A DNA stretch of 15,064 bases, from NCBI GenBank assembly GCA_016202645.1, contig JACQOF010000058.1:1-15064 (forward strand), in the 5' to 3' direction. Made by a program: the position numbers and the translations under genes. Source of the DNA: a bacterium (lineage in GTDB: Bacteria; Lindowbacteria; 2-12-FULL-62-27). Below the pieces are notes generated by a model. The model did no database searches. It was not told the DNA's origin and worked only from the letters and a program-made list of their open reading frames with translations. Below are positions 3,423 to 14,916 of this stretch, in pieces (position 1 is the first letter of the stretch; every line of letters starts with the position of its first letter).

Positions 3423-3424
3423 TA

Positions 3425-3464
3425 GTATCGGAGTATCGGAGTGTCGGCGTATCGGTGTATCGGT
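3425..3464 (+). repeat. Five tandem 8-base units (GTATCGGA-type), copy 1
   Basis: Read on the plus strand the units are GTATCGGA, GTATCGGA, GTGTCGGC, GTATCGGT and GTATCGGT, followed by GAAAC. The array fills most of the gap between the CheX-like stop (3478) and the promoter of the next gene. A second five-unit, 40-base array of the same unit, in the opposite orientation, lies at 12044-12083. Both arrays lead into GAAAC. Confidence 0.85.
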
Positions 3465-3477
3465 GAAACCGCGGAAA

Positions 3478-4240: not shown

Positions 4241-4513
4241 AATTAGCCGCGGAGGTCACGGAGAAGATAAATTCTGTTTTTGTAAGTTTATGACTGAAGT
4301 TTTGCAAGATTCCTCCTCCCCCCTTGAGGGGGAGGCAGGGAGGGGGGTTACAACTCCGAAATATACTGCTTTTCCTTCGGAAACCCCCCATCCAACTTCC
4401 CCCTCAAGGGGGGAAGGGTGGGTTGTGCAAATGCTGTAAATCGAATTTTCAAAAGTTCAGTTTATGATTTACAGACAATATTTTTTAATTCTCCGTGACA
4501 TCTGTGGCTAATT
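4241..4513. repeat. MITE-like long imperfect palindrome with C/G-rich core
   Basis: The outer arms, 4241-4265 on the plus strand and 4513-4489 on the minus strand, both begin AATTAGCC and share 22 of 25 bases including GTCACGGAGAA. Similarity continues inward for about 50 more bases (both contain TGTAA, ACTGAA, TTTTG). Inside these lie two opposed copies of a CCCCCTTGAGGGGG-type palindrome (around 4315-4337 and 4396-4419). The centre has GGGGGGTT (4342-4349) facing AACCCCCC (4382-4389) and CCGAA facing TTCGG. No transposase is encoded. The right end stops exactly at the TAA of the exported protein gene, so the folded RNA could also terminate the SUF transcript. No clear target-site duplication is seen. 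Confidence 0.65.
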
Positions 4514-5299
4514 TTACTTTTTCACAGGCTTCAAAAGCGAAATCGACGTTTGGATGGCTTTCATCAGCGGGGTGTCGTTCATGAGAAAAAACCGGTTGGA
4601 CGAATCTGGGAGGGGCCACGGTTCGTTGGAGGAATAAGCGTAAAAGGCGTAGCCTTCGGCGCCGGCGGCGCTGGCGACGGCGGCCATGCTCATGAGTTCA
4701 TTCGGGGTCGGCGGCCGGGGCCAGGCGGGAAGGCCGGCGAAGGACTGGAGGACGACATGGACGGGTTTGTCTTTCACGATATTTTTTGCGAGCGCGATAA
4801 ATTGGTGAAGCCGGCGGTAGTCGTCGGCGACGAGAGGAGTTTTCTTTGTGACGATGTAGGGGACGACGGCGAAGATGTCGCAGTAGGGCGCGTAGTCGGC
4901 ATACCGGTAGGGATTATAGAGGGTCTGGTAGACCGGATGCGCCGGGTCGACCGATTTCAGGGTGCGGTAGGCCCAGGCGACCTGTTCGACCGGTTTTCGG
5001 TTGACATCGGGCTCGTCGTAGATCATCCAGGCAAATAGGGCCGGATGGGATTTCAGCCCGGAAATTTTTTGGATCCATGCGTCGGTGTCCGGGCCGGGGG
5101 AAATATTGACGAGAGCGCGAAGGCCAAGCCGGTGCGCGGCGTCGAGCTGGTCTTTTTCGGGCCAGATGACAACGGCATTCATGGAAAGATTTTTGGCGAA
5201 GTCGTATCTGCCGAAGGGGACGTTGTAGAGGGCGAAGAGAGGGTCGGCGGCGAAGGCGGTGGACGGAAGGAACAAAAGCAGGGCCGTGAGAATTTTCAT
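4514..5299 (-). CDS. Exported TIM-barrel, glycoside hydrolase-like protein
   Basis: The 261-residue product begins with a Sec signal peptide (MKILTALLLFLPSTAFA, cleavage likely after AFA at 18), so it acts outside the cytoplasm. The mature part reads like a compact TIM barrel of glycoside-hydrolase type: MNAVVIWPEKDQLDAAHRLG, RALVNISPG, then HPALFAWMIYDEPD, where the W..xDEP block with Asp95-Glu96-Pro97 is the usual acid/base strand of such barrels, and a late AAGAEGYAFYAYSS strand. A partner nucleophile is not obvious, so activity is uncertain, and at 261 residues it is short for the fold. The start at 5299 follows the fusion gene's stop by 5 bases with no strong ribosome site, implying coupling. 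It is a functionally odd last gene of an iron-sulfur operon. Confidence 0.75.
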   Translation of the reverse strand: MKILTALLLFLPSTAFAADPLFALYNVPFGRYDFAKNLSMNAVVIWPEKDQLDAAHRLGLRALVNISPGPDTDAWIQKISGLKSHPALFAWMIYDEPDVNRKPVEQVAWAYRTLKSVDPAHPVYQTLYNPYRYADYAPYCDIFAVVPYIVTKKTPLVADDYRRLHQFIALAKNIVKDKPVHVVLQSFAGLPAWPRPPTPNELMSMAAVASAAGAEGYAFYAYSSNEPWPLPDSSNRFFLMNDTPLMKAIQTSISLLKPVKK

Positions 5300-5304
5300 A
5301 CGGT

Positions 5305-5904
5305 CTACGCCATGCCCAATTCCAAGCGGGCCGCGTCGGACATGCGGTCCGGGGTCCACTGGGGTTCCCAGACGATTTCCACTTGCGCGGCGCCGACGCC
5401 GTCCATCGCGGAGACTTTTGCCTCGGTCTCGGCCTGCATCTTGGGGGCTTCAGGGCATCCCGGGGCGGTGAGAGACATTTTGACGTGGACTTTCGATTTT
5501 TCCGGCTGATCCGGCAGAGGGCTGATGTTGACTTCATAGATGAGACCCAGATCGACGATGTTGACGGGGATTTCCGGGTCGTAACAGGTCGATAGGAGGT
5601 CCATCACCTTGTCTTTGCTGACGGCTTCTGCGCCGCCCGCAATCGACGGGACAATGCTGATCTCATCGCCGTTTTTGACGGGAGCTTTCATGTCCCCCTT
5701 CTGGCGGATGTCGTCTTCGTTCACGAAAACATTGATGAAGCTCCGGATTTTGCCGCTCTCGGCCACGAGGTGGGGCTTCAAGTCCGGATAGTCGGCCACC
5801 AGCCGGTCGAGGGCTTCCTGGACGGTCCGGCCGTCGACGGTTACAGCGGACTGCTGGCGGGTATGGGCCCGGAGGGCTGTGGGAATCAGAATGGTCACGG
5901 GCAT
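5305..5904 (-). CDS. MoaD/ThiS sulfur-carrier domain fused to SufT (DUF59) domain
   Basis: The 199-residue product has two clear domains. Residues 1-91 form a MoaD/ThiS/CysO ubiquitin-like fold (VTILIPTALR, GRTVQEALDRL, INVFVNEDDIR, GDEISIVPSIAGG) ending in the Gly90-Gly91 that in free sulfur carriers is the C-terminus and becomes a thiocarboxylate. Here the chain continues without a stop into a SufT/DUF59 domain (about 97-199) with YDPEIPVNIVDLGL (108-121), TAPGCP (146-151, Cys150) and WEPQWTPDRMS (169-179), all intact. The start at 5904 has AGGAGG upstream, overlapping the end of the cysteine synthase gene 5 bases away. SufT helps Fe-S protein maturation; CysO-type carriers feed sulfur to CysM-type synthases. 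No good internal ribosome site precedes the SufT part, so a fused protein is expected. Confidence 0.9.
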   Translation of the reverse strand: MPVTILIPTALRAHTRQQSAVTVDGRTVQEALDRLVADYPDLKPHLVAESGKIRSFINVFVNEDDIRQKGDMKAPVKNGDEISIVPSIAGGAEAVSKDKVMDLLSTCYDPEIPVNIVDLGLIYEVNISPLPDQPEKSKVHVKMSLTAPGCPEAPKMQAETEAKVSAMDGVGAAQVEIVWEPQWTPDRMSDAARLELGMA

Positions 5905-5908
5905 GGGG

Positions 5909-6880
5909 TCAATCCTCCTTCCAGAATCGTTCGGTGAGGTACTTGTCGGCGCCGTCCGGAAAGACGGTCACGATGAGCGCCGGTTTTTTTTCCGAGTCGA
6001 CGCGCCGCGCGAGGGTCTCGGCGGCGGCCAAGGCGGCGCCGGAGGAAAGCCCGATCAGAAATCCCTCCTGGCGAGCGGCGCGGCGGACCGCCTCGTGGGC
6101 GGCTTCGGTCGAGACAAACAAAGTCTCGTCCGGGAACGACCGGTCGTATATTTTCGGGACGATGGAGGAGGCCATGTGTTTCATGCCTTCGAGGCCGTGA
6201 AAGGGCGAATCGGGCTCGACGGCGATGACGCGGATTTTCCGGTTCTTCTCCTTTAAAAACCGCCCTACACCCATCAGGGTCCCGCCGGTGCCGACGGTGG
6301 CGATGAAGTGGGTGATCTTGCCACGGGTGTCTTTCCAGATTTCCGGCCCTGTGGCGTGGTAATGGGCGCGCCAGTTGTTGTCGTTGCCGTACTGGTTCGG
6401 GAAAAAATACCGGCCGGGGTCCTGATCGAAGATTTTGGCGGCGCCGCGAATGGCCCCGTCGGAGCCCTCCAGGGCGCTGGTGTAAATGACTTCGGCGCCA
6501 AGCGCGGCGAGGATGTGTTTCCGTTCCGGGCTGATGTTCGCGGGAACGCAGAGCTTGAGGCGGTATCCGCGGGCGGCGGCGATGCAGGCATACGCGATGC
6601 CGGTGTTGCCGCTGGTCGCGTCAAGGATGGTCTTGTCCGGCGTGAGCTTGCCGGTCCGCTCGCCCTCCAGGATCATCCGCGCGGCGGCGCGGTCCTTGAC
6701 GGACCCGCCGGGGTTCTGCCACTCGGCTTTGGCCAGGATGCGGACTTTGGAGCCGGGCGGCGAGAATTTTCCAAGGGCGATGAGCGGCGTGCGGCCGATC
6801 AACCCGAAGAAATCCGCGCCGGGGCCGCGCCCGCGGGCGGGGGAGCGTTTTGTTCGGTCTTTCATTGCCGAAATTTTCAT
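5909..6880 (-). CDS. cysM: Cysteine synthase, PLP-dependent (CysM/CysK type)
   Basis: The 323-residue product is a fold-type II PLP enzyme of the O-acetylserine (or O-phosphoserine) sulfhydrylase family. Visible landmarks are IGRTPLI (28-34), NPGGSVKDRAA with the PLP lysine Lys62, the substrate loop TSGNTG (89-94), the phosphate-binding GTGGT (197-201) and GLSSGAA (278-283) binding the PLP ring nitrogen. It makes cysteine in the cytoplasm, the sulfur donor of SufS two steps away in the pathway. CysK and CysM cannot be separated by eye; the next gene encodes a CysO-like carrier, which favours a carrier-using CysM. It starts at ATG 6880, 3 bases after the ygfZ stop; a second ATG at 6865 has a longer spacing to GAGGG and is possible. 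The first 22 residues are basic and unconserved in appearance. Confidence 0.9.
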   Translation of the reverse strand: MKISAMKDRTKRSPARGRGPGADFFGLIGRTPLIALGKFSPPGSKVRILAKAEWQNPGGSVKDRAAARMILEGERTGKLTPDKTILDATSGNTGIAYACIAAARGYRLKLCVPANISPERKHILAALGAEVIYTSALEGSDGAIRGAAKIFDQDPGRYFFPNQYGNDNNWRAHYHATGPEIWKDTRGKITHFIATVGTGGTLMGVGRFLKEKNRKIRVIAVEPDSPFHGLEGMKHMASSIVPKIYDRSFPDETLFVSTEAAHEAVRRAARQEGFLIGLSSGAALAAAETLARRVDSEKKPALIVTVFPDGADKYLTERFWKED

Positions 6881-6883
6881 CCC

Positions 6884-8047
6884 TCAGGCTATCTTTGAGG
6901 CGGCCGCGCTGGCAAGCGACCCCTGGCGGGCGATGTCGACGACCACGGCGGCCGGGCCGTCGGGGGAACCGATGCGAAGACGAGTGCCGGGGTCGAAGGA
7001 TCCCTTGGACACGAGCGCGAGCGCGACGGCGCGCGAAAATTTGATGGACCGCGCCGCGGATGTGACGGAACCCGCCCCCAACGCGCCATGGAGAAAATTC
7101 CCTCCTGGAATTTTCTGAGACTGGAGCGTTGGGGACTGGACTTCCCTGTCCGCGGGCTTGCCGTCCCGAAAGACAGGATCGCCCGGGCAGGCGGGCGGGC
7201 CGTCCGAGACGAGGCCGACGAGGCGGCGGTTGACGCCGCCGTAGGTATTGATCCGGGCGACTACTTCCTGGCCGGTATAACAGCCCTTCGTGAAACTGAC
7301 CGCGATTTCCTCGCGGGATGCCTCCTGCGGGAGATGGTCCGCCGTGTAATCGACGCCGAATTTCGGAATGCCGGCTTCAATGCGCAGGATGTCTTCGGCG
7401 ATCGCGCCGCAGAGACGCCCGCCGAATTTCTCGACGGCCGACCGGGCCGCCGCATGCCATTCATCCGCGCGGCTTTCGGGGACGGCAATGTCCACGCCCC
7501 GCTCGACCGTGCGATCGCGTGAAAAAATGAGGATATCCCGCTCTGAAACGACTGATCGTCGCACTGGCGCCTCTTCCCCCTCAAGGGGGGAGGATGAAAG
7601 TAGAAAGTCGGGTAGCGATAGACTCTTTAGAACTTCAGCATGCGCCGGACCGGCCAGATGAAACATCCTCGGCGCGTCCGGCTGTTCGTCGAGCGCGACG
7701 TCCTCCATGACGACTGAGGATTCGATCAGAGACACGAAAGAATCAAGCAGGTCGCCGGCGATCTGGACAGCCACGTGGCCGGGAAATGCCCAGGCGGTAA
7801 ACGGCATCCGGATTTTCCCCCTGGCTGTCAGAAACAGGGACTCCGCGCCGCGGCCCGGCGCGAGAGATTTGATGTCGTTGGACGAAAGCGTGTGAAGAAA
7901 ATTGGCAGCGTCGGCGCCTTTGAGAAAAACCAGACGGTCAGACAACGCGAACAGCCCGGCAGAGGCGTGCACGGCGGCGGCTTCGCCGCAGGGATCGCCG
8001 TAATCCGCGGGCGCGGCCGGATCCGGCCGGCTCTTCTGTCTGATCAT
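6884..8047 (-). CDS. ygfZ: YgfZ/GcvT-domain protein, folate-dependent Fe-S cluster maturation or repair factor
   Basis: The product (387 residues from ATG 8047) carries the YgfZ signature TKGCYTGQE with Cys256, preceded by EAGIPKFGVDYTADHLPQEA and followed by RINTYGGVNRRLVGL. YgfZ proteins bind tetrahydrofolate and support Fe-S enzymes under oxidative stress, fitting the cluster. Two stretches look inserted relative to the family. About residues 148-168 (FLLSSSPLEGEEAPVRRS) are encoded by a CCCCCTTGAGGGGG-type palindrome, and about residues 299-325 (including QKIPGGNFLHG) by a second hairpin. Both keep the frame. The A-type carrier gene's TGA overlaps a possible TTG start at 8056 (TTGA); ATG 8047 is 5 bases after that stop. 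Neither has a strong ribosome site, so initiation is probably coupled. Confidence 0.9.
   Translation of the reverse strand: MIRQKSRPDPAAPADYGDPCGEAAAVHASAGLFALSDRLVFLKGADAANFLHTLSSNDIKSLAPGRGAESLFLTARGKIRMPFTAWAFPGHVAVQIAGDLLDSFVSLIESSVVMEDVALDEQPDAPRMFHLAGPAHAEVLKSLSLPDFLLSSSPLEGEEAPVRRSVVSERDILIFSRDRTVERGVDIAVPESRADEWHAAARSAVEKFGGRLCGAIAEDILRIEAGIPKFGVDYTADHLPQEASREEIAVSFTKGCYTGQEVVARINTYGGVNRRLVGLVSDGPPACPGDPVFRDGKPADREVQSPTLQSQKIPGGNFLHGALGAGSVTSAARSIKFSRAVALALVSKGSFDPGTRLRIGSPDGPAAVVVDIARQGSLASAAASKIA
7092..7116. repeat. Perfect hairpin inside ygfZ (10-base arms)
   Basis: AGAAAATTCC (7092-7101) and GGAATTTTCT (7107-7116) are perfect reverse complements with a 5-base loop. They lie in a 25-30 codon segment that interrupts the otherwise typical C-terminal barrel of YgfZ between FRDGKPA and GSVTSAARS. 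The arms are markedly AT-rich against the surrounding gene. Confidence 0.6.
7572..7593. repeat. C/G palindrome inside ygfZ, sharing its core with the 4241-4513 element
   Basis: CTTCCCCCTCAAGGGGGGA at 7573-7591 is an exact 19-base copy of 4396-4414 inside the MITE-like element. It encodes SSPLEGEE in the ygfZ frame. The match is too long and too oddly composed to be chance, so it looks like a repeat unit carried into a coding region without breaking the frame. Confidence 0.7.
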
Positions 8048-8052
8048 CCGAT

Positions 8053-8457
8053 TCAACCCGGCGGAGCCGTGCTGGTCGACGGGGCCGGTTCGGATTTAAA
8101 GGAAACGGACGTGCCGCAGCCGCAGGTCGCCGCGACCCGGGGACTCAGAATGGTAAACCCCGCGCCCTGGTACTTCATGATGAAGTGGAGCGTCGATCCG
8201 TTCAGAAGCCTCAGGCTTTTTTCGTCGACGACGACCTTTGCGCCATTATGCTCAAAGACCCGGTCCTCGGGTTTGGGCCGGTCCATGCGCATGACGTACT
8301 CGAAGCCCGAACACCCGCCGGCTTTGACGCCGACCCGGAAGGCGTAGTCGGCCGGGTCGAGTTTCTGCTCGGTGTGGAAAATACCGATCCATTTGGCCGC
8401 CTCGTCCGACACGCGGATGAACGGCGCCGGCTTTGTTTCCGCGGTCTGTTCCGTCAT
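8053..8457 (-). CDS. sufA: A-type Fe-S carrier (SufA/IscA/HesB family)
   Basis: The 134-residue product has the A-type carrier layout with all three cluster-binding cysteines: Cys49 in AGGCSGF and Cys112/Cys114 in ATCGCGTS. These proteins receive an Fe-S cluster from SufBCD and pass it to target enzymes in the cytoplasm. The family core runs from about residue 14 (IRVSDEAAKWI) to 120; a short Ser/Thr/Pro/Ala tail follows. The start at ATG 8457 is 7 bases after the sufU stop. A longer frame from 8493 would overlap sufU by 29 bases and add residues outside the family, so it was not chosen. Assignment among SufA, IscA and ErpA rests on operon context. Confidence 0.9.
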   Translation of the reverse strand: MTEQTAETKPAPFIRVSDEAAKWIGIFHTEQKLDPADYAFRVGVKAGGCSGFEYVMRMDRPKPEDRVFEHNGAKVVVDEKSLRLLNGSTLHFIMKYQGAGFTILSPRVAATCGCGTSVSFKSEPAPSTSTAPPG

Positions 8458-8464
8458 GGTTACG

Positions 8465-8905
8465 TCACATCCCTTCCCTGGCCGAGCGCTCATTCAAGGC
8501 TTTTTCGAGCGTTGTCCATGCGAGGAGCGCGCATTTCACGCGCGCGGGGAAATCGGCGACGCCTTTCAGGGCTTCGAGATCCCCGAGTTCCTCATCCGTC
8601 AGTTTTTCTTCCCCGTGCATCATGGCCTTGATGCCGTTGATATATTTTTGCGCGTGCGCGCGATCCCGGCCCTTCAGGGTCTCGGTCATCATGGACGCGG
8701 ACGCGAGACTGATGGAACAGCCTTTGCCCTCGAAGCGGATGTCCTTAAGCGTTCCCCCGTTCACGTGCGCGTGCAGGCAGAGTTCGTCCCCGCAGAGCGG
8801 GTTGGACTCGAAAATCTCGATGTCGGGCTTTTCGAGTTTCCCGCGATTGCGCGGGGTCTTGTAATGGTCGAGAATGATTTCCTGATAAAGTCCTTCGAGG
8901 CTCAT
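8465..8905 (-). CDS. sufU: SufU-type sulfurtransferase / IscU-like protein
   Basis: The 146-residue product contains the conserved ligands of the IscU/SufU fold: Cys38 and Asp40 in NPLCGDE, Cys63 in GKGCSIS and Cys125 in RVKCALLAW. The extra stretch of about 20 residues before the third cysteine (near 96-120, HGEEKLTDEELGDLEALKG) and the lack of an IscU-type LPPVK motif mark SufU rather than IscU. In Bacillus, SufU is a zinc protein that accepts sulfur from SufS and hands it to SufBCD. No SufE is present in the cluster, so SufU is the expected partner here. Its ATG overlaps the sufS stop (ATGA at 8905-8902). Confidence 0.95.
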   Translation of the reverse strand: MSLEGLYQEIILDHYKTPRNRGKLEKPDIEIFESNPLCGDELCLHAHVNGGTLKDIRFEGKGCSISLASASMMTETLKGRDRAHAQKYINGIKAMMHGEEKLTDEELGDLEALKGVADFPARVKCALLAWTTLEKALNERSAREGM

Positions 8906-10188
8906 GTTTTGAATATCTCCTTTGCTTTTAAAATGCCCTCCGCCAAGCGGTCCACGTCCGCCTCCATATTATACACATAAAATCCGGCGCGCGCAGTCGC
9001 CGCGACTTTGAGGCGCTCCATCAGCGGCTGAGCGCAGTGGTGGCCCGCCCGGATGGCCACGGCACATTCCCGGTCGACGATGGTGGCCAGGTCGTGGGCG
9101 TGTACGCCGTCGACGTTGAAGGACACCACGCCGCCGCGGCGGGATGGGTCGGGCGGCCCGTAGAGGGTGATGCCGGGAATTTCGCCGAGTTTCCGGAGCG
9201 CGTAGGCCGTGAGGGTCTTCTCGTGTTCGCGGATCCGGTCGAGGCCGATGCCGCGCAGATAGTCGATGGCGGCGCCCAGGCCAATGGCGCCCGCGATGTC
9301 GGGCGTGCCGGCTTCGAATTTCCAGGGCAGATCGTTCCACGTGGCGTGATCGAGGAAAACCTGCCGGATCATGTCGCCGCCGCCGTGGAAGGGCGGCATT
9401 TTTTCAAGGACCGATTTGCGGACGTAGAGCGCGCCGATGCCCGTCGGGGCGCACATTTTGTGGCCGGAGAGCGCAAAAAAATCACAGTCGAGGTCCCGCA
9501 CGTCGACGGCCATGTGCGGCGCGCTCTGGGCGCCGTCGACGCAGATGAGGGCGCCGGCGTCGTGCGCCAGACGCGCGATGTCTTTGACGGGATTAATCGT
9601 CCCGAGGACGTTGGAGACTTGCGTGACGGACACCAGGCGCGTGCGGTCCGAGATCAATTTTCCGGCGACGGCCAAATCCAGAACGCCGTCCGGGTCCAGT
9701 GGAATATGTTTGAGCGCCGCACCCTTTTCTTTCGCCAGAATCTGCCACGGCACGAGGTTGGAATGGTGTTCCATTTCGGTCAGAAGGATTTCGTCGCCGG
9801 ACTTCACGTTCGCGCGGCCCCAGGCATAGGCAACGAGGTTCAGGGATTCGGTCGTGCCGCGGGTGAAGATGATCTCCTCGACGGTTGCGGCGTTCAGGAA
9901 CGCGCGGACTTTTTCGCGCGCGCCTTCGTAGGCCGCCGTGGCCTCCTCGGCGAGGCGGTAGGCGCCGCGGTGGACGTTGGCGTTGGTGGTTTCATAAAAC
10001 CGGGTGATGGCTTCGATGACCGCGCGGGGTTTCTGGGTGGTGGCGGGATTGTCGAGATAGACGATGGGTTTGCCGCCGAATTTCCGGTCGAGCACCGGAA
10101 AATCCTTTCGGATCGCGGCGGGATCGATTTCCCCGGATTTTTTCCCCGGGACGGGTGAGGCGGCGGTTTGTTTCAAGGCCAGGCTCAC
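8902..10188 (-). CDS. sufS: Cysteine desulfurase SufS
   Basis: The product is a fold-type I PLP enzyme that removes sulfur from cysteine. From the GTG at 10188 it has 428 residues. Signatures are DNPATTQKP (46-54), NANVHRGAYRLAEEAT (69-84), FTRGTTESLNLV, the PLP-phosphate region VDGAQSAPH, the Schiff-base lysine Lys244 in SGHKMCAPTGIG, and the active-site cysteine Cys385 in RAGHHCAQP, which is the SufS (group II) pattern. No ATG exists before the conserved core, and the frame extends back to 10635, but that extension would read through the Rieske gene in another frame. GTG 10188, 19 bases after the Rieske stop, is therefore the likely start, although its ribosome site is weak. TTG 10176 is an alternative. 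Confidence 0.93.
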   Translation of the reverse strand: MSLALKQTAASPVPGKKSGEIDPAAIRKDFPVLDRKFGGKPIVYLDNPATTQKPRAVIEAITRFYETTNANVHRGAYRLAEEATAAYEGAREKVRAFLNAATVEEIIFTRGTTESLNLVAYAWGRANVKSGDEILLTEMEHHSNLVPWQILAKEKGAALKHIPLDPDGVLDLAVAGKLISDRTRLVSVTQVSNVLGTINPVKDIARLAHDAGALICVDGAQSAPHMAVDVRDLDCDFFALSGHKMCAPTGIGALYVRKSVLEKMPPFHGGGDMIRQVFLDHATWNDLPWKFEAGTPDIAGAIGLGAAIDYLRGIGLDRIREHEKTLTAYALRKLGEIPGITLYGPPDPSRRGGVVSFNVDGVHAHDLATIVDRECAVAIRAGHHCAQPLMERLKVAATARAGFYVYNMEADVDRLAEGILKAKEIFKT

Positions 10189-10207
10189 GGCAAAGGCCGT
10201 CCCGTCC

Positions 10208-10543
10208 TCAGGTCCCCGCCTGGGTGGGCGCGGGGGAAGACACGTCGATGTGGATCTCGCCGTTTTGGACTTTGACGGCGTACGTTTGGACGGCCGTGAC
10301 GGCCGGCATGGTGAGGGCGGCGCCGGTTTTGATGTTGAAGAGCGCGCCGTGCCATGGACATTCGACGGTCTCGCCGTCGATGGCGCCCTCGGCCAGGGAC
10401 GCCTCCTCGTGGGTGCAGATATCATCGATGGCATGAAACTGGCCGCCCAAGTTGAACAACGCCACGCGGTGTCCGTCGACTTGAAAGAGTTTTCCAGAGC
10501 CTTCCGGCAGATCGGCGGCGCGGGCGACGAATTGGTAGGCCAT
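10208..10543 (-). CDS. Rieske-type [2Fe-2S] ferredoxin
   Basis: The 111-residue product carries a complete Rieske motif: Cys43 and His45 in CTHEEASL, and Cys62 and His65 in CPWHGALFN. It lacks signal peptide and membrane anchor, so it is a soluble ferredoxin like the electron carriers of dioxygenase systems (BphF/NirD-like). Actinobacterial suf operons also carry a small Rieske gene, where it is thought to supply electrons or act as an early client of assembly; the precise role is unknown. The start is ATG 10543 with only a weak purine stretch upstream. It is separated from sufD by 119 bases that contain a dRS3-like inverted repeat, the largest gap in the operon. Confidence 0.93.
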   Translation of the reverse strand: MAYQFVARAADLPEGSGKLFQVDGHRVALFNLGGQFHAIDDICTHEEASLAEGAIDGETVECPWHGALFNIKTGAALTMPAVTAVQTYAVKVQNGEIHIDVSSPAPTQAGT

Positions 10544-10576
10544 AAGGAACTATTCAGCCATCCTCTCTCTGCTCTC

Positions 10577-10633
10577 GTCATGCCCGCGAAAGCGGGCATC
10601 CAGAGTCTGGATTCCCGCTTTCGCGGGAATGAC
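10577..10633. repeat. dRS3-like inverted repeat between sufD and the Rieske gene
   Basis: Two 28-base arms (10577-10604 and 10606-10633) are reverse complements except at two positions, around a single-base spacer. Each arm contains its own palindrome: GCCCGCGAAAGCGGGC (10582-10597) and ATTCCCGCTTTCGCGGGAAT (10611-10630). The second fits the pattern ATTCCC-N8-GGGAAT known as dRS3 in Neisseria, and similar units occur in many proteobacterial genomes. It would fold into a strong hairpin in the suf mRNA, so it could separate or stabilise the two halves of the transcript. No T-run follows on the minus strand. Confidence 0.8.
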
Positions 10634-10662
10634 AACCCGAGTGAATACAGCCATGATTAATT

Positions 10663-12045
10663 TCACTCTCCCGGTGAATCTTCCTGGTGAAGTTCAAATT
10701 TAATCTGCAGGGCCCGGCGGACGCGTTCCTGGAGCGCCGCGGCCGGCACGCCTTTCAATACTTCCTCATAAAAACCCAGCACGATCATTTTCCGCGCGAG
10801 GACTTCAGGTATACCCCGGCTTTTCAAATAAAACAATTCCTCCGCGGAAATTTCGCCGATGGTCGCGGCGTGCTTGCAGATAACGTCGTTGGCCTCGATC
10901 TCCAGGGTCGGCACCGAGTCGGAGCGGGCCTTGTCGGACAGAAGCATCGTGTGGTCGGCGAGGAAGGACTGGGTCTGCGCGGCGGCGGTTTCGACGACGA
11001 TCCGGCCGCGAAATCCAGACCGCGCGTAATCGTCGCAGACGCCCTTGTAGAGGATGTTGCCTTCCGTGTGCGGCGCTTTGTGCGTCAGCAGGGTCACGAT
11101 GTCGGACTGCTGGCGGCCGTTGATGTAATAGAGGCCCAGAAGCTCGCATCGGCCGCCCTTGCCGGTCAGATCGCAGTCGATGTTGCCCTTGTTGAGGCGG
11201 CCGCCAAGTTCCGCCGTGAGCCACGCGACCTGCGCTCGTTCCCGGCCGATGGTTTTTTCGCTGGTAAAGTTGAAGGTCTCCGTATCGAAATCCTGCAGGG
11301 ACATGAACCGGATCTGAGCGCCGTCGGCCATGTGGATTTCGGCGGCGCTGGACACGAGGTTCTGTCTGCCGGCTCCGCTCGCGGGGCGCTCGGAGGTGCG
11401 TTCCTCGAAGTAGCTGAGGGAGGCGTCCCTTTCGAGAATGATGAGGGTGTGCGGAAAGAGTCCGGCGCCGGGGGCGTCGGCGAAGACGAGGGACCGGAGC
11501 GGCACGTCGACGTGGACGCCGGCGGGGACGTAAAGGAAAGTCCCGCCGGACTGAAAGGCGTAATGGAGCGCGACGAATTTACCGTCGGTGGCGGGCCGGA
11601 TCGACCCGTAATATTTCCGGACGAGGTCCTCATGCTCGCGGGCGGCGCGGTCGAACCCGCACCAGACGACGCCCTGCTTGCGGAGGTCTTCGTCGAGGCT
11701 TTCATAGATGTCCTCGGAATTATGCTGAATGAGCGTGCCCGCGGCGTGCGGGCCAAGATCGACGCGGCTTTTGACCGGCCCGGTCAGGGCGCTCAGGCTG
11801 GTGACTTTCCCGATTGATTCGGCGAAGGGGGCGATGTCCGAGAGCCGAAGCGCGCGCAGGTCGACCCTGCGCCATTCCTCGTCCCGGCGCGTCGGCATGG
11901 GAAGTTTCTGGTAGAGGTCCCACGCGCGTTTGCGGGATTCGGCGAGCCAGGCCGGTTCGCCCGCGCGGAATTTTTGGAGCGCCGCGAATCCCTCCGCAGT
12001 GAGGCCCGACATCCGGGTTTCTTCAGCAGTTGTCATGAGTTTCAC
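10663..12045 (-). CDS. sufD: Fe-S cluster assembly protein SufD
   Basis: The 460-residue product has the SufB/SufD beta-helix core, with a helical N-terminus (RKRAWDLYQKLPMPTRRDEEWRRVD near 38-62), the GTFLYVPAGVHVDVPL strand block (168-183) and the conserved C-terminal block VICKHAATIGEI, where His392 corresponds to E. coli SufD His360 at the SufB-SufD interface. SufD pairs with SufB and SufC2 to form the cytoplasmic scaffold. The start GTG 12045 has GGAG 5 bases upstream; ATG 12036 would leave a 14-base spacing, so GTG is preferred. Both the GGAG and the GTG belong to the 8-base repeat array 12044-12083. SufB lies directly upstream. Family assignment as SufD and not SufB rests on the length, the weaker core and the position. 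Confidence 0.93.
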   Translation of the reverse strand: MKLMTTAEETRMSGLTAEGFAALQKFRAGEPAWLAESRKRAWDLYQKLPMPTRRDEEWRRVDLRALRLSDIAPFAESIGKVTSLSALTGPVKSRVDLGPHAAGTLIQHNSEDIYESLDEDLRKQGVVWCGFDRAAREHEDLVRKYYGSIRPATDGKFVALHYAFQSGGTFLYVPAGVHVDVPLRSLVFADAPGAGLFPHTLIILERDASLSYFEERTSERPASGAGRQNLVSSAAEIHMADGAQIRFMSLQDFDTETFNFTSEKTIGRERAQVAWLTAELGGRLNKGNIDCDLTGKGGRCELLGLYYINGRQQSDIVTLLTHKAPHTEGNILYKGVCDDYARSGFRGRIVVETAAAQTQSFLADHTMLLSDKARSDSVPTLEIEANDVICKHAATIGEISAEELFYLKSRGIPEVLARKMIVLGFYEEVLKGVPAAALQERVRRALQIKFELHQEDSPGE

Positions 12046-12083
12046 CGATTCTCCGTTTCACCGATACTCCGATACTCCGATAC
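12044..12083 (-). repeat. Five tandem 8-base units (GTATCGGA-type), copy 2, forming the sufD translation start
   Basis: On the minus strand the units are GTATCGGA, GTATCGGA, GTATCGGT, GAAACGGA and GAATCGGT, followed by GAAAC. The array is 40 bases long, the same size as the copy at 3425-3464. It fills nearly all of the 48-base sufB-sufD gap. The GGAG core of the fourth unit is the apparent ribosome site of sufD and the last unit's end provides the GTG start. Confidence 0.85.
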
Positions 12084-12093
12084 TTTCAAGAAA

Positions 12094-13515
12094 TCAGCCG
12101 CAGGCGCCGGTCATCTCCAGTTCGATGAGCCGGTTGAGTTCGACGGCATATTCCATCGGAAGTTCCTTCACAAGCGGCTCGATGAACCCGCGGACGATCA
12201 TGGTCATGGCTTCGCCCTCGGGAACGCCGCGGCTCATGAGATAGAACAGCTGTTCGTCGCCGATCTTGGAGACGGTGGCTTCGTGGCCGATGGAAACGCG
12301 GTCCTCCTCGTTTTCCATGTACGGGAAGGTGTCGGACTTGCTTTCGGGATCCAGGAGCAAAGCGTCACAGCGGACGTGGGACTTTACGTCCTTCGCGCCT
12401 TTTTCGACTTTCACCAGGCCCCGGTAACTCGTGCGGCCGGTGCCCTTGGAGATCGATTTCGAGATGATCTGCGACTGGGTGTTCGGCGCGCAGTGGACCA
12501 TCTTGCCGCCCGCGTCCTGGTGCTGGCCGTCGCCGGCGAAAGCGATCGATAGAACTTCACCCTTGGCGCCGGGTTCCATCATGTAGACGGCGGGATACTT
12601 CATCGTGAGCTTGGACCCGAGGTTGCCGTCGACCCATTCGACGGTGGCGCCTTCGTAGGCCATGGCGCGTTTGGTGACGAGGTTGTAGACGTTTTTCGAC
12701 CAGTTCTGGATGGTGGTGTAACGGAGGCGCGCGCCTTTTTTGGCGATGAGTTCGACGACCGCCGAGTGCAGGGAATTGGCGGAGTAGACGGGGGCGGTGC
12801 AGCCTTCGACGTAATGGACGTAGGAGCCTTCATCGGCGATGATGAGGGTGCGCTCGAACTGGCCCATGTTTTTCGCGTTGATCCGGAAATAGGCCTGAAG
12901 CGGCACTTCGACGTGGACACCCGGCGGGACGTAGACGAAAGACCCGCCGGACCAGGCCGCGGAATTGAGCGCGGCGAATTTGTTGTCGGCCGGAGGGATG
13001 ACGGTGCCGAAGTACTGTTTGAAAAGTTCCGGGTATTTTTCCATGGCCTCGGTCGGATCGAGAAAGATCACGCCCTGCTTGGCCCATTTTTCCTGAAGAC
13101 TGTGGTAGACGACTTCCGACTCGTACTGCGCGCCGACGCCGCCCAGCCACTCGCGCTCGGCCTGGGGGATGCCGAGTTTTTCGAAGGTGTTCTTGATGTA
13201 CGCGGGGACGTCCTCCCAGGAGTCCTCGTTGGAACGGTCGGAAGGCCGGACGTAATAGAAGATGTCGTTGAAATCAAGCTCGCTGAGGTCTCCGCCCCAG
13301 GTCGGCATCTGCTTCTTCTCGAAAATCTGAAGAGACCTCTGCCGGAACTGGCGCATCCACTCGGGCTCCTCTTTCATGTGGGAAATCATGTCGACGACCC
13401 GCGGGTTGATGCCTTTTTCAGACTTGAAGGAGTAGTCCTCTTTATCCGAAAAGCCGTAGACGTACTCGTCCTTGGCCCGGGTCAGCTCCTGAAGATTTAC
13501 CTCATCGCTTGCCAT
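12094..13515 (-). CDS. sufB: Fe-S cluster assembly protein SufB
   Basis: The 473-residue product is a full-length SufB: an N-terminal region with [20 protein letters not shown] (35-54), the beta-helix core with [22 protein letters not shown] (190-211), [18 protein letters not shown] (341-358) and the C-terminal block [15 protein letters not shown]. Cys383 and Glu412 match by position and spacing the E. coli residues Cys405 and Glu434 needed for cluster assembly. SufB receives sulfur from SufS/SufU and builds the cluster on the SufBCD complex. The ATG at 13515 has AGGAGG 11 bases upstream and follows the sufC stop by 24 bases. The C-terminus (EMTGACG) is normal for the family. No anomalies were seen. 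Confidence 0.97.
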
Positions 13516-13539: not shown

Positions 13540-14367
13540 TCACGCGGCCGCCACTGGGGTGGCGATGCCGAATTTCTGGCGGATCCAGTCGTAGCCCCGG
13601 GCTTCCAGCTCCTGGGCGAAATCGGGGCCGCCGGACGTCACGAGTTTGCCCTCCATGAGGACGTGGACGATCTGGGGCCTGATGTAGTTGAGGAGGCGCT
13701 GGTAGTGCGTGATGACCAGCGCGCCCATGCTCGGCCCCACGAGGCGGTTGACGCCCTCGGCGACGGTTTTCATCGCGTCGATGTCAAGACCCGAATCGGT
13801 CTCGTCAAGGATGGCAAGCTCGGGTTTGAGGACCGCCATCTGGAGAATCTCGACGCGCTTTTTTTCGCCGCCGGAAAAACCGTCGTTCAGGTACCGAAAC
13901 GCAAAGTCCTCCTTGAGGCTGAGCGTTCGCATGTTTTCCTTGAGGATCTTGAGAAACTCCCGCGCGGAAATCTGGTTGCCGTTTTTGCCGGCCGCTTCCG
14001 CATCCTTGCCGGTGATGGCCTTCAGAACCTTGCCGCCGGCGCGCTTGGCGTTAACGGCGGTGCGGAGGAAATTCCCGACAGTGACGCCGGGGACGGCGGC
14101 GGGATATTGAAACGCGAGAAAAAGACCGGCGCGGGCGCGCTCGTCGGGCGGCATGGCGAGCAGGTCCTCGCCTTTGAAAAGAACCTTGCCGCTCGTGATG
14201 GTATATTTGGGATGGCCGGCGAGGGCAAAGGAAAGCGTGCTTTTCCCGGAGCCGTTCGGCCCCATGAGCGCGTGGACTTCGTTCTTGCTGACCTGAAGCG
14301 AAATCCCCTTGATGATCTCCTTGCCTTCGACCGACACGTGCAAGTCTTCGATTTCAAGCGTAGCCAA
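13540..14367 (-). CDS. sufC: Fe-S assembly ATPase SufC
   Basis: The 275-residue product is an ABC-type ATPase with Walker A GPNGSGKST (36-44), Q-loop Gln87 in AFQYPAAVPG, the signature FSGGEKKR (164-171), Walker B LAILDETDSGLD (184-195) and switch His221. The ETDSGLDIDA wording is characteristic of SufC and not of transporters. It drives conformational change in the soluble SufBCD complex. It starts with TTG at 14367; GGAGGT lies 8 bases upstream and no in-frame ATG or GTG is better placed. It is about 25 residues longer than typical SufC because of a Lys/Gly/Ala-rich stretch (near 106-137, AKRAGGKVLKAITGK onward) before the ABC-specific helices. The regulator gene ends 18 bases upstream. Confidence 0.97.
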   Translation of the reverse strand: MATLEIEDLHVSVEGKEIIKGISLQVSKNEVHALMGPNGSGKSTLSFALAGHPKYTITSGKVLFKGEDLLAMPPDERARAGLFLAFQYPAAVPGVTVGNFLRTAVNAKRAGGKVLKAITGKDAEAAGKNGNQISAREFLKILKENMRTLSLKEDFAFRYLNDGFSGGEKKRVEILQMAVLKPELAILDETDSGLDIDAMKTVAEGVNRLVGPSMGALVITHYQRLLNYIRPQIVHVLMEGKLVTSGGPDFAQELEARGYDWIRQKFGIATPVAAA

Positions 14368-14385: not shown

Positions 14386-14916
14386 TTAACCGGCCGCCGA
14401 TGCGGCCACAGCCGGCGTCGGAGACGCCGGCACTTGGGGCCGCGGAGCGGCTGATCCGGCAGGCTGAGACGCGCGGGACGCCATCAGCTGTTCGACTTCT
14501 TTTTCCTCCATGAGCATGTCCGCCAGGGTCGTGCGGTTCAGGGTCGTGTATATCTGCCTTGCCAATAGCGCCCAGACCGGCCGGATCCCGCATCCGCCGA
14601 CGTGGGAACAGGCTTCCAGTTTTCCCGGATACTCGGAACACAGATCCTTCGGATAAAAAAACCCGCCCAGGGGCCGAAGCACATCGGAAAGATGGATCTG
14701 TTCCGCGGAACGTCTCAGGCAATACCCGCCGTTGATCCCGCGCACACTCTCGATCAGACCGGCCCGGCGAAACGTCACGAGAAGTTTCGTGACATAATCA
14801 GCGGACAGCCCCTCCTGCGCGGCAATCTCCCGAACCGACACGGCCCGCCCAACCCCGGCGCGCGCCAACTGAAGTATACACCTGAGCCCGTACTCCTCCT
14901 GCTTGGAAATCTTCAT
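14386..14916 (-). CDS. Rrf2-family (IscR/SufR-like) Fe-S-sensing transcriptional regulator
   Basis: The 176-residue product has the Rrf2 winged-helix domain: EEYGLRCILQLA (7-18), VSVREIAAQEGLSADYVTKLL (27-46) and the wing GLIESVRGINGGYCL (53-67). Three cysteines, Cys93, Cys103 and Cys109, lie in the usual cluster-binding segment, with His105 nearby. Their spacing (9 then 5 residues between) differs from E. coli IscR (5 and 5), so cluster binding is likely but not certain. About 30 C-terminal residues (from 147) are Ala/Pro/Ser-rich and probably disordered, longer than in most family members. As first gene of the cluster it is the expected autoregulator of suf expression in response to Fe-S status. 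The start at ATG 14916 has AGGA 10 bases upstream. Confidence 0.93.
   Translation of the reverse strand: MKISKQEEYGLRCILQLARAGVGRAVSVREIAAQEGLSADYVTKLLVTFRRAGLIESVRGINGGYCLRRSAEQIHLSDVLRPLGGFFYPKDLCSEYPGKLEACSHVGGCGIRPVWALLARQIYTTLNRTTLADMLMEEKEVEQLMASRASQPAGSAAPRPQVPASPTPAVAASAAG

Follow-up and report, generated by a model that had tools for sequence, protein, structure and literature searches.

The window (15,064 nucleotides, the entire contig C31 of a 2.9-Mb genome with an estimated completeness of 82%) encodes a CysO-type ubiquitin-like sulfur carrier and the Fe-S maturation protein SufT in a single open frame, in which the Gly-Gly motif of the carrier is buried in the chain. The fusion is probably real and, as judged from the genomes compared, private to this lineage; it most likely works like MoaX of Mycobacterium tuberculosis, but with a new partner. 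The frame reads from 5904 to 5305 on the minus strand, begins with ATG and runs through 199 residues with no stop between the halves. The plus-strand reading of 5305-5904 is broken by a stop, and the composition of the three codon positions is similar on either side of the junction.

Both domain matches are far beyond chance. The ThiS family (PF02597) covers residues 6-91 (E 1.9e-11) and FeS_assembly_P/DUF59 (PF01883) residues 97-175 (E 1.4e-17), each above the Pfam cut-off; the NCBIfam model SUF_assoc (TIGR02945) extends over residues 97-198 (E 8.6e-35) with 119 bits, under its curated whole-protein cut-off of 143. The nearest solved relatives of the carrier half found by phmmer are CysO of Amycolatopsis (4n6e_B) and of M. 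tuberculosis (3dwg_C), and both chains end exactly at the Gly-Gly that matches Gly90-Gly91. Those of the SufT half are the DUF59/SufT proteins 1uwd, 2cu6 and 3lno, and alignment with 25 SufT proteins revealed the full SUF-associated length and the conserved motifs. By sequence, the carrier half thus belongs to the CysO family, and the SufT half is intact. Foldseek searches with a structure model relate the carrier half to 4n6e_B (target TM 0.87) and 3dwg_C, and the SufT half to 3cq2 and 3lno. Residues 89-93 are the sole segment of the model with pLDDT below 50; the low pTM (0.52) despite two well-predicted domains suggests a flexible joint at the Gly-Gly. Beyond Gly91 the chain continues with AEAVSKDKVMDLL, 108 residues in all, so that the encoded protein has no C-terminal Gly-Gly, and the carrier would gain one only after cleavage. 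The original prediction, a MoaD/ThiS-like carrier domain ending in VPSIAGG and running on in frame into a complete SufT (DUF59) domain directly downstream of cysM, is borne out on all these points; the carrier can be placed more closely, in the CysO family, and the minus strand, which the prediction did not give, can be added. The long SufT family (TIGR03406) was considered as origin of the N-terminal half and rejected: its match covers only residues 93-198.

All genes of the surrounding suf operon lie on the minus strand, in the order Rrf2 regulator, sufC, sufB, sufD, Rieske ferredoxin, sufS, sufU, iscA-type, ygfZ-type, cysM, fusion and an unnamed protein (Table 1). The listed open frame at 8902-10635 is longer than SufS, the TIGR01979 match beginning at its residue 174. 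The unnamed protein (4514-5359, minus strand) directly follows sufT, has its listed start inside the fusion gene and is 60-64% conserved at the same place in both relatives described below; it has no Pfam or NCBIfam match. The YgfZ-like gene (6884-8056, minus strand) carries two in-frame insertions compared with both relatives, one of which, LLSSSPLEGEE, contains a 24-nt repeat (7575-7598) that is 96% complementary to one arm of a hairpin at 4310-4414, in the gap downstream of the operon. A near-perfect 28-nt hairpin occurs at 10577-10633, between the Rieske gene and sufD, and repeats of the TATCGGAG type form a 46-nt inverted pair at 3424-3469 and 12039-12084, 8.6 kb apart.

Table 1. The fused gene, its parts and the neighbouring genes of the operon
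Feature	Position	Strand	Basis and remarks
Fused cysO-sufT gene	5305..5904	-	Open frame; both domains by Pfam; 199 aa
CysO-type ubiquitin-like sulfur carrier domain, residues 1-91, ending VPSIAGG	5632..5904	-	ThiS PF02597, phmmer, Foldseek
SufT (DUF59) domain, residues 97-199	5308..5616	-	PF01883, TIGR02945, Foldseek
Residues 92-100 (AEAVSKDKV) after Gly91	5605..5631	-	Sequence; no stop; no ATG where sufT of the relatives starts
CysM-type cysteine synthase	5909..6880	-	TIGR01136/TIGR01138; 4 nt upstream of the fusion
YgfZ-like Fe-S protein (suf operon)	6884..8056	-	TIGR03317 above cut-off
IscA-type carrier	8053..8493	-	TIGR00049 above cut-off
SufU	8465..8905	-	TIGR01994 above cut-off
SufS cysteine desulfurase	8902..10116	-	TIGR01979, 602 bits
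Rieske-type ferredoxin	10208..10543	-	PF00355
SufD	10663..12045	-	By reading, position and 30-33% cross-match with SufB, not family scan; 71-74% conserved in both relatives, same place
SufB	12094..13515	-	By reading and position, not family scan; 93% identical in relative G001, same place
SufC	13540..14367	-	By reading and position, not family scan; 84-87% identical in both relatives, same place
Rrf2-family regulator	14386..14916	-	PF02082

The comparison within the phylum comprised three genomes: the present one (G000) and two relatives, G001 and G002, the latter a Candidatus Lindowbacteria assembly. The block is syntenic in both relatives, including the genes downstream of sufT; the order suf-cysM-cysO-sufT is conserved, and cysM adjoins the carrier gene in all three genomes. 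In G001 and G002, carrier and SufT are encoded by two genes side by side; the fusion is therefore either an event of this lineage or an error. The carrier of G002 ends with VPSIAGG, directly followed by the stop, and overlaps sufT by ATGA; that of G001 ends with VPSIAGGRR and a stop, and there an AGGAGG probably doubles as the ribosome site of sufT, which starts 5 nt later. VPSIAGG itself is identical in the three genomes. Pairwise identities of the carrier half are 69, 68 and 71%, and it does not evolve clearly faster on the branch of the fusion; for both halves, dN is 0.15-0.25 against saturated or high dS, rates that also average over the time before the fusion. Both relatives have, between ygfZ and cysM, a DUF59-containing gene with an open frame of 370-468 aa, probably of the Mrp type (L155 9661-9894, minus strand; G002:C20:14356-14625); it is absent from the window.

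The two-domain architecture, which the original prediction proposed to look for elsewhere, appears to be rare. No second open frame with both domains was present among the matches listed in a search of 386 other genomes, and the best 80 loci from a scan of 84,980 species genomes contained no fusion outside the window. A script run over 154 fetched loci found both domains in the window frame only, and none of about 100 SufT loci had the fusion. One match over residues 1-199 outside the window (L040) turned out to be the two separate genes of G002. Outside the phylum, neither CysO nor CysM occurred beside SufT within the flanks fetched around SufT loci. The papers searched on HcyS/HcyD and on this phylum held nothing on the point of a carrier-SufT fusion, and the domain combination was not found in the literature searched.

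How could a carrier with a buried Gly-Gly function? To our knowledge, the motif is chemically useful only at a C-terminus. A free C-terminal glycine is required for adenylation and thiocarboxylation, as established for MoaD and CysO (PMC4326299, PMC3227635); hence, without a cut after Gly91 the carrier would be idle. MoaX of M. tuberculosis and DR2607 of Deinococcus radiodurans likewise consist of an N-terminal ubiquitin-like carrier with a buried Gly-Gly, fused to another protein: MoaX is cut between Gly82 and Ser83, and its activity requires that cleavage (PMC4326299); in Deinococcus a JAMM protease cuts the MoaD-MoaE fusion (PMC8832034). Here, too, the sequence and the structure model indicate a continuous chain whose internal Gly-Gly lies in a flexible joint. 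In those fusions, however, the carrier is joined to MoaE, the enzyme that uses its sulfur; in the present protein it is joined to SufT, while the sulfur presumably goes to CysM, encoded by a gene of its own. Fused carriers whose Gly-Gly is buried are thus already known; new is SufT as the partner.

The unfused counterparts of the two halves are known as well. The CysO-CysM-Mec-MoeZ pathway of M. tuberculosis (PMC3227635) shares with the present genome a CysO-type carrier beside CysM, a MoeZ-like E1-rhodanese and a JAMM protein, but CysO of M. tuberculosis is a free protein ending with Gly-Gly, neither fused to SufT nor part of a suf operon. The same four functions make up the ThiS/MoaD-E1-rhodanese-JAB-cysteine synthase operons of types 4b-4d (Iyer, Burroughs and Aravind 2006, PMC1779556); here, in contrast, the genes for E1 and JAMM are located elsewhere, and the cysM-cysO pair forms part of the suf operon. 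SufT of Staphylococcus aureus and Rv1466 of M. tuberculosis (PMC4982691, PMC9045647) resemble the C-terminal half and its suf operon context, but have no carrier domain.

Both enzymes that the original prediction suggested looking for, a JAMM protease and an E1-like enzyme, are encoded elsewhere in the genome. The E1 is a single ThiF-rhodanese (E1-rhodanese) protein of the MoeZ kind. The JAMM protein, encoded on contig C95, has an intact HxH-x10-D motif and counterparts in both relatives; its nearest NCBIfam family is the desampylases, under the cut-off of that family. Its gene is not adjacent to the fusion; the G001 counterpart lies ~3.4 kb beyond a carrier-NIL gene on the same contig. Three further carriers are encoded besides the fusion. 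Other carriers of this genome end with GGDI (L003) or GGK, or run into a NIL domain (L002). No second CysO beside a CysM was found in this genome. Several carriers of the phylum extend past the Gly-Gly with unlike tails (DI, K, RR, SAYGFNNFSTT, ESDLFPFTPFSIFH and the NIL domain), and a trimming activity is therefore probably needed anyway. Carriers related to L003 in G002 (L038 1468-1791, minus strand) and G001 (L039) have unlike tails of 14 and 11 residues after the Gly-Gly. In the carrier-NIL proteins (L002, 1282-1806, minus strand, in this genome; L037 in G001), a CysO-like carrier with a buried Gly-Gly passes directly into a second domain, as in the fusion, but this domain is NIL instead of SufT and the genes adjoin a threonine-synthase-like gene; they possibly represent another protein-borne sulfur route in amino-acid synthesis.

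The unchanged Gly-Gly tail, the conserved carrier half, the flexible joint and the JAMM gene favour cutting, as do the known cases of MoaX and DR2607, and on balance we judge the following course of events to be probable. The operon neighbours cysO and sufT would have been fused in frame in this lineage, so that a single polypeptide would contain both domains, each folding on its own, connected flexibly at the Gly-Gly. A JAMM metalloprotease of the Mec/desampylase type would cut after Gly91 and release CysO and SufT, the latter two residues longer at its N-terminus than the free SufT of G001. Freed CysO would be adenylated and thiocarboxylated by the MoeZ-like E1-rhodanese and give its sulfur to CysM, which would make cysteine, probably from O-phosphoserine; the cysteine could supply SufS of the same operon, and SufT would act in Fe-S maturation as usual. 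From the domains and genes present we infer that the chain is cut and its carrier thiocarboxylated, and likewise which substrate CysM uses and any advantage of making both halves at a fixed 1:1 ratio. The adjacent CysM in three genomes and the closeness to CysO, which CysM uses, speak for a CysO role of the carrier. No CysE reaches the cut-off in any of the three genomes, which fits O-phosphoserine as the substrate of CysM. CysM has Lys at the position of Arg220 of M. tuberculosis CysM, a residue that we take to bind phosphoserine, and CysK1 has Gln there; Lys appears compatible with, yet not diagnostic for, phosphoserine use. MoaE, checked for a link to molybdopterin synthesis, was not found in this 82% complete genome and was found in both relatives. 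Against the release of the carrier weigh, in our assessment, the occurrence of the fusion in one incomplete genome, the separate genes of both relatives, the distant JAMM gene and the purely predicted nature of the cleavage.

The original prediction had offered release by proteolysis and docking as alternatives. If the fusion stayed whole, its carrier half might have given up carrying sulfur and instead hold SufT to CysM or the E1, for docking or regulation. The adjacent cysM gene, the solved complex in which CysO binds CysM (3dwg) and the existence of SufT proteins with another N-terminal extension (TIGR03406) would suit such a role. However, the Gly-Gly tail, which has no use other than thiocarboxylation, is the same as in the relatives with free carriers, the carrier half shows no clear acceleration, and a replacement CysO beside CysM was not found in the genome, though three other carriers exist. 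Nothing found points positively to docking, which we regard as unlikely, and less likely than release.

The original prediction further held that separate genes in all relatives would mark the fusion as an assembly error. The relatives do indeed both have two genes, yet an error cannot be concluded from this, since the stop, the ribosome site and the start codon between the genes are all missing in the window. An error that joined two truly separate genes would take one substitution or one indel of a single base: codon 93 (GAA) would become a stop if its G were changed to T, and the +1 frame of the carrier ends in a TGA that shares bases with codon 100 (GTG), as in coupled gene pairs. Yet the ATG that starts sufT in the relatives is replaced by GCC/GCA, and no long homopolymer is present at the junction. 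The predicted duplex energy of the ribosome site is -13.1 and -9 to -10 kcal/mol in the relatives, compared with -0.9 kcal/mol at GTG100 of the window; ATG101 reaches -6.1 kcal/mol, but with zero spacing. A start at codon 100 or 101 would leave 5-6 residues before the TCYDPE motif, a truncation without parallel in 99 SufT open frames, none of which has fewer than 14 open residues there. With the boundary on the stop side, ribosome site and start codon of sufT all gone, an error appears improbable.

Further readings have less in their favour. CysO-SufT might stay joined for at least part of its life and physically link the making of cysteine by CysM with the role of SufT in Fe-S maturation; cutting at Gly91 would then serve as the regulatory switch between the two. 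To this we give a small chance. The fusion might also be without functional importance and in transit to loss, other carriers serving cysteine synthesis so that only the SufT half matters; three further carriers are indeed present, but the carrier half is as conserved as in the relatives, and the chance of this is slighter still. Least likely of all is that the carrier feeds sulfur straight to Fe-S assembly via SufT, bypassing cysteine: the physical fusion and the suf operon context are all that suggests it, whereas the usual sulfur source, SufS with SufU, is encoded in the same operon, CysM is kept beside the carrier, and we know of no SufT that acts as a sulfur acceptor.

Release of the carrier after Gly91, the reading preferred here, makes the CysO-SufT protein an unusual variant of the fused carriers known elsewhere rather than a new kind of system, and SufT adds to the few proteins known to be joined to a carrier whose Gly-Gly is buried. 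The original prediction went too far in seeing a new connection of cysteine synthesis with Fe-S maturation, as the gene order in three genomes is evidence of arrangement, not of function. Since several carriers run past their Gly-Gly, a general JAMM trimming step becomes testable. The conserved order suf-cysM-cysO-sufT places cysteine synthesis from protein-borne sulfur and Fe-S assembly in one gene cluster of this phylum.
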